DNA from: a virus
IMG/VR virus record: IMGVR_UViG_3300037156_000076
Coordinates: 1-50,643 of that record
DNA: 50,643 nucleotides
Direction: 5' to 3' (one strand)
Part shown: positions 13,847-44,874 of the stretch, piece after piece
Numbering within the stretch: the stretch's first letter is position 1
How the letters are laid out: each line of letters begins with the position of its first letter
Notes under the pieces: generated by a model
Seen by the model: the letters and a program-made list of their open reading frames with translations, nothing else
What the model was told of the DNA's origin: nothing
Databases searched by the model: none
Program-made: the position numbers and the translations under genes

Positions 13847-14415
13847 GGGTGCGGAAGGCCAAGAAGTGCCGCGTAGCTTCGTGCGGGGCCTTATTCGTCC
13901 CGCAACGTCTGGGCCAAGTAGTTTGCAGTCCGACGTGCGCGATTAAGGATGCGCCTGCCAATCAGGACAAGGCGCGCAAGGCCCTGGCTGATGTCGGGCG
14001 CCGGGACATTAAGGTTCGCAAGGAGAAGCTGAAGAGCAGGGCGGATCACCTCAAAGACACGCAGAAAGCGTTCAACGCCTGGATCCGTGAGCGGGATGCG
14101 GGCCAGCCATGCATCAGTTGCGGGACAACGGCGGACGTTCAGTACTGCGCGGGTCACTACAGGACAACTGCAGCATGCCCAGAGCTTCGCTTTGACCCTC
14201 TCAATGTCCATTTGCAGTGCAATCGCAACTGCAACATGGGTAAGTCGGGGAACCTGCTGGGGTATCGCCCGCGGTTGCTGCAAAAGATCGGTGCGGAAAA
14301 GCTCGCTTGGGTCGAAGGCCCGCATGAGCCGAAGAGGTACACCGTTGACGGGCTGAAGGCGATGACGGCGGCGTACCGGGAGAAGACCAGAGAACTCAAG
14401 AGGGCGGCAGCATGA
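13831..14415 (+). CDS. ninG: NinG (Rap) recombination nuclease-like protein
   Basis: 194 residues from ATG 13831, which has AAGGGG seven bases upstream; ATGs at 13810 and 13825 are in frame but badly spaced. Hallmarks: CRVASCGALFVPQR with a zinc knuckle at the start, LKDTQKAFNAWIRERDAGQPCISCG in the middle, then AGHYRTTAACPELRFDPLNVHLQC and NCNMGKSGN. In lambda this protein (Rap) promotes phage recombination and cuts branched DNA. The stop overlaps the next gene. Confidence 0.92.
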   Translation: MLASVRVRKAKKCRVASCGALFVPQRLGQVVCSPTCAIKDAPANQDKARKALADVGRRDIKVRKEKLKSRADHLKDTQKAFNAWIRERDAGQPCISCGTTADVQYCAGHYRTTAACPELRFDPLNVHLQCNRNCNMGKSGNLLGYRPRLLQKIGAEKLAWVEGPHEPKRYTVDGLKAMTAAYREKTRELKRAAA

Positions 14416-14957
14416 CTTATCGCAACGTAGTGTCAGCAGTTGTCCGGGCCCTGGCGGCCGAAACGATAAATAGCGCTGGCGGGTGCGACTTCGAACCGAA
14501 GGTGCAATGCGCAAAGCAGAAGGGTGAGATCGTCGGTAAGGAAGCTGCATTCTTGACGGACTGCTGGGTATTCGGTCGGCTGCACAAGGGGTTGAGCCCG
14601 GCGCACTGGCGGGCATTGGTGGCGAAGTTCTCGACGCACATGGACCGTAAGCACGCCGCAATCACTGAACTGACCAAGGCTATCCGGTCGCCAGCACCTG
14701 AGCGGTTCCGTCATTGCGCCGTCGTTACCTGGGCTCTGCCGAAGTTGCCAGGCGCTGACGGTAAGCGGTCGACCAATGTACTGCCGGCTGGGTGGTACGA
14801 GATGGATAACTGGTCAGATGAGCCGGTGCCGGTCCGCACGCAAAGCCGGTGGCGCCGAGACATCAGCAAGACAATTGAGCAGGAAGTCGATAGGGCGCTT
14901 GAGTCCGCACAGATGCTTTTCGATGCGGAGGGGCTTATCTGGGCAGATGCAGCTTGA
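14412..14957 (+). CDS. Protein in the Q (late antiterminator) position
   Basis: 181 residues. No decisive motif is visible: there is no CxxC finger, and the C-terminal half has a basic patch (TQSRWRRDISKTIEQEV) with an acidic helix. The position is what matters: directly after NinG, last early gene, and its stop codon overlaps the -35 of a strong promoter followed by a leader RNA and terminator. That is exactly where lambdoid Q genes stand. I call it a candidate late antiterminator; homology is not demonstrated. Confidence 0.55.
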   Translation: MTYRNVVSAVVRALAAETINSAGGCDFEPKVQCAKQKGEIVGKEAAFLTDCWVFGRLHKGLSPAHWRALVAKFSTHMDRKHAAITELTKAIRSPAPERFRHCAVVTWALPKLPGADGKRSTNVLPAGWYEMDNWSDEPVPVRTQSRWRRDISKTIEQEVDRALESAQMLFDAEGLIWADAA

Positions 14958-14982
14958 CTACACTGGCCGACTGGCTTAGATT
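14954..14982 (+). promoter_or_regulatory. Candidate late promoter (pR'-like)
   Basis: TTGACT (14954-14959), 17-bp spacer, TAGATT (14977-14982): nine of twelve consensus positions with ideal spacing. The -35 overlaps the stop of the Q-position gene. Transcription should begin near 14989. No other equally good promoter is visible before the late genes. Confidence 0.7.
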
Positions 14983-14988
14983 ATCCCC

Positions 14989-15183
14989 ATCCTGTCGATC
15001 TTGCGCATGAAGGTTGGCAGGGTAAGTGTGTGAGGGGAACTCGCTTACGGCGATACGGTATACCCACCGAGAGATGAGCTGCTTGGCCAACGATGGTGAT
15101 AGGGTTTGAGACCCTTAGCTCTGCCGGTTCAAGTCCGGTCACACTGATAAATTACAGAAAGGTCGCTTAGGCGGCCTTTTTTA
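14989..15183 (+). ncRNA. Late leader RNA (6S-like) with a tRNA-like T arm
   Basis: About 195 bases run from the predicted pR' start to the terminator at 15160-15183, close to the length of the lambda 6S leader. Bases 15123-15139 form a canonical T arm (GCCGG/CCGGT around TTCAAGT). 15140-15146 can pair six of seven with 15024-15030 like an acceptor stem, and 15104-15118 contains an anticodon-like hairpin (AGGG/CCCT with loop TTTGAGA). The span of 124 bases is too long for a normal tRNA and there is no clear D arm, so I do not call a tRNA gene. The rest of the gap to 15310 holds a second weaker hairpin plus T-run at 15258-15281. Confidence 0.45.
15160..15183 (+). terminator. tR'-like terminator after the late leader
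   Basis: Stem AGGTCGC/GCGGCCT (7 bp, one G-U) with loop TTAG and seven T. A related copy, weaker in stem, lies at 15258-15281. Late genes downstream would need antitermination. Confidence 0.8.
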
Positions 15184-15310
15184 TTGCCCGAATTTCCCCC
15201 AAAGACCTCCAAGTCTCTTGCCTCGGCAATGCGTAGATGGGAGGCACCCTTTCCCTTGGTCGCCAGCAGTCGGCCTTTTTTATTCCAACTCCCAGAAGGG
15301 AGGAAGCCGG

Positions 15311-15634
15311 ATGAAGATCATGCCCGAGAAAGACCCCTCGTTCTGGGCACTGGTCATCACCGCATTGCGGGACAACGGCCTGGCCATGGCCTTGACGTTC
15401 GCCCTGATCTTTCTGCGCGTCCAGTACGAAGGCAAAGAGACGAGCACTGTCCGCAAGCTGATCGAGGCAACTCTCGGCGCGCTGATGGTTATGGTCGTCG
15501 GCCTGACGGTTCAAAACTTCGGACTCAGCAGCGGCTGGGCATTCTTCGCGTCTGGCTTCGTCGGGATTCTCGGCGTTGACCAGGTGCGCCAACTCGGCAA
15601 GCGCTGGTCTGAGCGCAAGGCGGGCGAGCTATGA
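15311..15634 (+). CDS. Holin, lambda-holin-family type
   Basis: 107 residues. The opening KDPSFWALVITALRDNGLAMAL is typical of the family. Three hydrophobic segments lie at about 14-34, 46-66 and 72-92, and the tail is basic. GGAGG stands seven bases upstream of the ATG at 15311. It should form the inner-membrane lesions that release the endolysin. It is the first late gene, while the endolysin and spanins are 27 kb away at 42.2-43.3 kb. Confidence 0.85.
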   Translation: MKIMPEKDPSFWALVITALRDNGLAMALTFALIFLRVQYEGKETSTVRKLIEATLGALMVMVVGLTVQNFGLSSGWAFFASGFVGILGVDQVRQLGKRWSERKAGEL

Positions 15635-43568: not shown

Positions 43569-44375
43569 CTAGGCCCCTTCTTGGTCTTTCGTAACCAGAT
43601 CTGCCCAGTCTTGCATCATCGCTCTTCGATGATCCAGGTAGTTCGCGTGGTTATAGATGTCGCGGATGGTGCTTTTGTCGCCGTGGGCAAGTTGGCGCTC
43701 AACCCAGTCCCGATTATATTCACGCCCGTTCATCTCGGTTGAGAACATATGTCGGAAGCCGTGCGGGGATTGCTTGCCGGTTAGACCGCAAAGTTCCAGA
43801 ACGCCAACGGCATAATTAATGCCGATCGGGCGAGCGGTGTCATTCCGGTTAGGGAAGACATACCGATTCCCTCCAGATATTGGCAGCATGGTTTTCAGCA
43901 ATTCAACTGCCTGCGTTGGCAGCGGGATCATATGCTCGCGGCGCATCTTCATCTTGGCTGCGGGAATCGTCCATGTTGCTGATTCTAGATCGATCTCCGA
44001 CCACTCGGCCTTTCTTACCTCTGCCGGGCGCGCGACGGAATAGATCACCATCATGGTCGCGACCTTGTGCGGATGGCCCGACTCGCAATCCCAGATCATT
44101 TTAATGATGCTCGGCATTTGTTCGAAGCTCAGAAACGGTCGATGCTTGTGCGGCTCCATCTTTGTCGTAACGGTATTCATGTGCACTGTGGGGTCGTTTT
44201 CAACTATCCCGCTGGCGATGGCGTACCGGAAAACCTGACTAATCCACTGCCTACCCTTTACTGCCTGGGTAATCGCACCGCGGCGCTCAATCTTGCGTAT
44301 CAGGCTGATGATGTCGGCACGCTTGATGGCGTCGATCTGTCGAGCACCGAGGGCCGGAAGAGCATCAAGATCCAT
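43569..44375 (-). pseudogene. int: Tyrosine integrase (P4-type), N-terminally truncated
   Basis: About 269 residues match a P4-type integrase from ALPALGARQIDAI onward: RRGAITQAVKGRQWISQVFRYA, first catalytic Arg in YSVARPAEVRKAEW, box II HGFRHMFSTEMN, and the Tyr in HANYLDHRRAMM. The usual first ~120 residues (arm-binding domain and start of the core-binding domain) are absent. The frame runs on to 44471 over the end of the 169-residue gene, without homology. No ribosome site precedes ATG 44375. Catalytic residues are intact, so loss seems recent. Confidence 0.8.
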
Positions 44376-44874
44376 CGCATTGCTGATTATCTTGAATGTC
44401 GCCAGCGTCAAAGCTGCCGCCCTCGAAGGCTGCATCAACCATCTCGCAAGCAAAAGCACGAAGCTCCGCATTCCGCTGCTCGGCGATGGTCAGGCGCTGA
44501 TGGAGGTCTTTAGCGTGGGCCGACCAATAACCGCCACAGTCATTCCAGCCATTACAGTATTGCGTTGCGCTTGCTCCAGGGTTCCCAGAGAAGTCATAAG
44601 GAAGGATTTGTTTTACTGGGCGCTTCCAAGCGTCCAAAGCGCCAGGGATGAACCCTTGATGATCCAGGCTATGGCTGAGATTCCAAGCCTGATCTATTTT
44701 CTCGTTCGCCTTCGTCAGCTCCTCCAGCGCCTTCGCCTCCCCAGCCAGCGCATTATTCAACTGCAACTGAAGGTCAGCCACTTGCTCGGCGGTCATATTT
44801 CCGCAAGTCCTAAGGTAGTCCTGATGATCTCGGGCGTAGCGTTGTTGTAGGGTTTCGTCTTGATTGGTGGGCAT
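44365..44874 (-). CDS. Hypothetical phage protein, probably C-terminally truncated
   Basis: 169 residues, coiled-coil start (about 28-62), then YCNGWNDCGGYWSAHAKDLHQRL and a last recognisable AEQRNAELRAFACEMVDAAFEGGSFDAGDIQ. This last element normally continues in similar Pseudomonas phage proteins as I recall them, but here the frame ends within eight residues, at the integrase junction. AAGGA precedes the ATG at 44874. Confidence 0.65.
   Translation of the reverse strand: MPTNQDETLQQRYARDHQDYLRTCGNMTAEQVADLQLQLNNALAGEAKALEELTKANEKIDQAWNLSHSLDHQGFIPGALDAWKRPVKQILPYDFSGNPGASATQYCNGWNDCGGYWSAHAKDLHQRLTIAEQRNAELRAFACEMVDAAFEGGSFDAGDIQDNQQCDGS

Follow-up and report, generated by a model that had tools for sequence, protein, structure and literature searches.

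The segment 14954–15182 of the window (i.e. the whole 50,643-nt stretch analysed), together with the upstream gene for a protein of 181 aa, very probably serves as the switch by which a lambda-like Pseudomonas phage turns on its late genes through antitermination, as judged from sequence, a predicted protein fold and analogy with characterized systems. The 181-aa gene, the switch elements, the insert and the holin gene described below lie on the plus strand, as does a second terminator-like site. Pfam and PHROG matches reveal a lambda-like gene order around the switch, NinB-NinG-Q-holin-terminase, with a terminase of the gpA type; the first late gene is the holin gene (15311–15634; PF05106, E 1e-15; phrog_126). 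For comparison, we collected 129 loci carrying a gene related to the 181-aa gene, some of which are redundant. Sequence comparison of these loci gives good support for a conserved position of the switch ahead of the lysis and terminase genes.

The 181-aa gene (14412–14957) occupies the position of Q. Its product was assigned to phrog_3412 (E 6e-72), which carries the PHROG label “unknown function”. A Pfam search with the protein returned no match, and phmmer and profile searches of PDB sequences gave no hits, and hence no similarity to any solved antiterminator or Q protein. The AlphaFold model, which was built on 28 sequences and has a mean pLDDT of 78.5 with low confidence for residues 21–35, is helical. 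In a Foldseek search with this model, AlpA was the first and the second match, with probabilities of 0.99–1.00 and weak E-values of 0.06–0.1. Structural comparison of the predicted model yielded a Z score of 12.9 over 138 residues for AlpA (7xya) and 8.0 for lambda Q (7ubn), followed by an unrelated protein with 5.2. Helical folds can reach middling Z scores by chance; the two best kinds of match are exactly the antiterminators predicted from the gene position. The protein is thus predicted to fold like AlpA and lambda Q.

Antitermination systems of this kind are already known; their presence in phrog_3412 appears to be unannotated except in the record of PseuP_222, which labels its family member an anti-termination regulator. 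A non-exhaustive literature search found no account of the family as antiterminators, and the homologue in phage MR15 (NC_074660, gp72) carries the annotation “putative prepilin peptidase”. The proposal would assign a function to a widespread Pseudomonas phage family, including orf84 of phage D3 (NC_002484), which belongs to the same protein family and the same system. The D3 protein is 36.5% identical to that of the window, and its gene is likewise followed by a promoter with a period-8 repeat, a 5′ hairpin, a terminator, and the late genes.

The preliminary description had noted a promoter, TTGACT-17-TAGATT, over the stop codon of the gene in Q position, and we recovered it at 14954–14982. 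The −35 element TTGACT (14954–14959) overlaps the TGA with which the antiterminator gene ends (14955–14957) and is conserved in most relatives, and the −10 element TAGATT of pR′ (14977–14982) is seen in the aligned promoters. It is the sole promoter-like site on the plus strand within 10–20 kb. When both strands were considered, two promoter-like sites were observed versus 3.7 in shuffled sequences, so that the match alone is no proof; the proof comes from the conservation in relatives. Transcription is predicted to start at A14989. A motif ATCCTG or ATCTTG is conserved at about +1 to +6; it matches the −10-like element of a sigma-dependent pause weakly and could serve as one.

Between the −35 and −10 elements lies a candidate antiterminator binding element (14962–14975), which resembles a QBE and consists of two direct repeats of ACTGGC (14962–14967 and 14970–14975) with a period of 8. 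A tandem repeat of this period is present in the spacer of 88% of 93 non-redundant promoters, whereas other periods reach 0–12% and shuffles 3.5%. The spacers of most relatives read TGAGCCA twice or almost so. The half-site class tracks the putative recognition helix of the protein, TxxRWxxxI (residues 143–151; T143-x-x-R146-W147-R148-R149-D150-I151 in the window), and none of the 129 rows, some redundant, clearly departs from this pattern. ERWRR occurs with TGAGCC-type half-sites, YRWRS with GTGAGA, YRWK with GTGGCA, and QRWxK with ATGTCG, and the window combines SRWRRD with CTGGC (ACTGGC). The window protein and its counterpart at locus L002 share 86% identity, yet L002 combines ERWRR with TGAGCCA sites and the window SRWRR with ACTGGC. 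In the divergent L121 (66% identity to L002), helix core and TGAGCCA site are both those of L002. The association is due in part to shared descent; the repeat class of the window is a single case in its clade. A mutual-information ranking of the protein columns did not single out the recognition helix alone, because the clades differ throughout the protein. On this pattern of sequence co-change, we infer that the ACTGGC repeats are putative docking sites for the 181-aa antiterminator. The family provides a natural series of such protein–site pairs, from which the specificity of the antiterminators can be read, and the recognition code is directly testable because close relatives (the window and L002) differ in both helix and sites.

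The strong intrinsic terminator tR′ is located at 15158–15182, with a 7-bp stem (AGGTCGC-TTAG-GCGGCCT) followed by T6, and a sequence scan found a second terminator-like site at 15258–15282, ahead of the lysis genes. The RNA from the predicted start to tR′ would be about 194 nt long, in line with the terminator that had been noted about 195 bases past the promoter. A terminator is present at most 330 nt downstream at 102 of 116 loci, with a median start of +37.5, directly behind the hairpin described below. The window terminator starts at +169 versus about +38 in relatives, in which the short RNA is usually about 60–75 nt long; in the window, an insert lengthens it to about 194 nt. The arrangement had been described as the lambda 6S plan “almost to the base”. 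This is true of the length in the window but not as a conserved plan, and the near-identity is a coincidence, because about 130 nt are inserted in the window and the terminator of the relatives lies at about +38.

That a putative DNA-binding helix clearly tracks a DNA site could also be explained if the 181-aa protein were a DNA-binding activator of an ordinary lysis-gene promoter, and no antiterminator. We regard this as improbable, since most relatives have a terminator directly downstream, the site occupies the −35/−10 spacer, like those of Q and AlpA, and the fold matches two antiterminators. The late switch with pR′, tR′ and a 181-aa antiterminator, as originally suggested, is well supported by the predicted AlpA/Q fold, the period-8 repeats that track the helix, the conserved position, and the terminator in most relatives.

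Three characterized systems are closest. The 21Q element of phage 21 comprises a pair of direct TGAGCA repeats whose key bases, at −21 and −13, lie eight apart (PMC6606751). The family of the window likewise has paired direct repeats, spaced at 8 bp, in the −35/−10 spacer and a terminator past the late promoter, and the TGAGCA subsites of 21Q compare with TGAGCCA in most relatives of the window. In sequence, the window protein does not resemble 21Q, and its predicted fold is closest to AlpA; further differences from 21Q are the conserved 5′-terminal RNA hairpin and the variation of the half-sites among members. AlpA of Pseudomonas aeruginosa resembles the window family in the predicted fold, in a binding element between −35 and −10, and in terminators close to the start, at +54 at alpB and +26 at PA0807 (PMC7969949, PMC9371919). 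A single AlpA molecule is reported to recognise one GGGACG element, unlike the tandem repeat of the window family, and AlpA controls host cell-death genes (PMC7969949, PMC9371919). The lambda Q/pR′/6S/tR′ system shares the location after the nin region, the promoter at the end of the Q gene, the terminator ahead of the lysis genes, and, in the window, the RNA length. However, this length is not conserved in the family, and the fold match to lambda Q is weaker than that to AlpA.

The RNA made from pR′ would begin with a 5′-terminal hairpin (14989–15023), predicted to fold with 14 bp and the loop GCGCATG. In 91 of 97 leaders, at least 6 bp are paired across the same loop. For 29 distinct ungapped leaders, which were selected for a 10-bp arm and an 8-nt loop, so that the selection favours structure, the covariation score was 0.385 versus 0.250 (sd 0.016) in shuffles, 83.4% of the cells pair versus 41–50% in slid controls, and both sides have changed in 20 cells versus 6.1 in shuffles. 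Our suggestion that the hairpin is a working part of the switch, which either helps to load the antiterminator or acts as a stopper keeping the ring on the threaded RNA, is tentative and rather doubtful. If true, the system would be a hybrid of the DNA-loaded Q and the RNA-loaded nut/put systems. No Q or AlpA system is known to have a conserved RNA hairpin at +1. One locus (L270) has the same 5′ leader and terminator with a different promoter spacer and no recognised family protein upstream; therefore, the leader may travel with other antiterminators.

Combining these elements, RNA polymerase would start at pR′ near 14989, make a short RNA led by the hairpin, and halt at tR′. When the 181-aa protein reaches a sufficient level, two copies would bind to the two ACTGGC half-sites in the −35/−10 spacer and load onto the early paused polymerase, making it resistant to tR′ and later terminators, so that the lysis, packaging and structural genes could be transcribed. 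Both 21Q and AlpA load onto polymerase paused close to the promoter and build a narrow ring inside the RNA exit channel (PMC6606751, PMC9371919); by analogy, we propose that two copies of the window protein would load and carry polymerase past tR′. The insert (15024–15157) would be cargo, probably what is left of a tRNA gene; other members have genes of this type intact between pR′ and holin.

The insert, which is about 130 nt long and separates the hairpin from the terminator, was not found in the relatives, and no sequences related to it were detected in 398 Pseudomonas genomes, in IMG/VR, or by BLAST against phages and plasmids, which gave chance matches only. On closer inspection, neither a match in Littlefix nor one of 34 bp in a single Pseudomonas genome is a tRNA. 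Exact-pattern scans of IMG/VR for the window-type promoter, 5′ hairpin and T arm revealed no useful relatives among the matches listed. The predicted stability of the insert does not exceed that of shuffles (z values of 0.17 and −0.5 in two tests).

The canonical T arm that had been reported in the leader, GCCGG-TTCAAGT-CCGGT, is indeed present (15123–15139) and is the only perfect one on either strand of the window. The expectation is 0.125 perfect T arms per window and about 2e-4 per 160 nt of one strand, and the T arm is unlikely to have arisen by chance. In the same interval of 113 distinct regions, three perfect T arms outside recognised tRNAs, including that of the window and one that is part of another cassette, compare with 0.08 expected. 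A hairpin resembling an anticodon arm, AGGG-TTTGAGA-CCCT, with the would-be anticodon TGA, can be drawn from the sequence at 15101–15115. The partial acceptor pairing mentioned in the preliminary description exists, with 6 of 7 pairs between AAGTGTG (15024–15030) and CACACTG (15140–15146). However, it is uninformative, because about 80% of chance T arms find a comparable partner within 60–140 nt, and part of its 5′ side is engaged in local pairing in the MFE fold. The acceptor is followed by ATAAA instead of CCA, which is weak evidence because CCA can be added after transcription. ARAGORN and a covariance search with the Rfam tRNA model, the latter even at E 10, did not identify a tRNA in the window leader. 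ARAGORN reported one solely when its threshold was lowered to 60%, at which spurious calls arise as well; its calls with introns or low thresholds were discarded as unreliable.

Several relatives contain intact tRNA genes downstream of the switch, and D3 has four in the interval between orf84 and holin. They follow tR′ in D3, whereas the window has only a tRNA-like remnant, which precedes tR′. Because the T arm is unlikely to be a chance product and D3 and other phages have tRNA genes in the same interval, the most likely reading is that the tRNA-like piece is the leftover of a tRNA gene outside the switch proper and that the insert is cargo. A decayed tRNA gene, one of the origins proposed at the outset, is thus unproved but preferred here with modest confidence. 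There is a smaller, still appreciable chance that the T arm and the partial cloverleaf are a coincidence in an unrelated insert, which would leave the switch unchanged. The shuffle-like stability, the missing Rfam match, the nearly free acceptor pairing, the lack of relatives, and the expectation of 0.125 T arms per window are compatible with coincidence. Against it, the only perfect T arm of the window falls within a 160-nt stretch expecting 2e-4, in an interval that carries tRNA genes in D3 and other relatives and is enriched in non-tRNA T arms.

A functional tRNA mimic in the leader RNA, e.g. a decoy for a defence enzyme that cuts tRNAs, or an RNA that is processed, would account for the canonical T arm, and a relative with an odd tRNA-like element shows that such elements occur in this interval. 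We nevertheless consider it very unlikely, as the insert is not conserved and has no excess stability, the acceptor is weak and followed by ATAAA, and the tRNA model does not match; a conserved mimicry is not supported. Attachment sites often lie in the 3′ ends of tRNA genes, and the T arm could in principle stem from an old site of this type. This origin is hardly credible: the reading was dropped because the integrase gene is located at 43569–44471, about 28 kb away, and the segment is not matched by any host tRNA in the 398 Pseudomonas genomes.

The tRNA-like element of the relative mentioned above (L021:3651-3761) lies after the terminator and has a 7-bp acceptor, a T arm, an enlarged D region, and a long anticodon arm that ends in a tetraloop and has no usable anticodon; it is missed by ARAGORN. 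The distant relatives L121 and L126 share another insert after the hairpin, approximately AAGGCCGCyCGGGmTGATCTCCGGGCGTTA. A T-loop-like element, CTTCGGGGGnnGAnnGGTTCGATTCC, is conserved directly after the 5′ hairpin in L288-L299 and also in L010, L095 and L100; it precedes or overlaps a small membrane-protein ORF, and L100 has a similar T-loop hairpin. The terminators of L095 and L100 lie at about +250 to +290. The short elements of L010, L095 and L100 were rejected as support for the window T arm as part of one conserved RNA, because they are ahead of or overlap the small ORF, and those of L010 and L095 recur as another cassette. Several relatives contain the orphan RNA Proteo-phage-1 (RF03044), which is absent from the window (L018:3657-3735, L026:3659-3737, L093:3709-3788, L100:3923-4001, and L095:3974-4053). 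Because it is sited just past pR′ and the terminator, Proteo-phage-1 can be assigned to the late leader.
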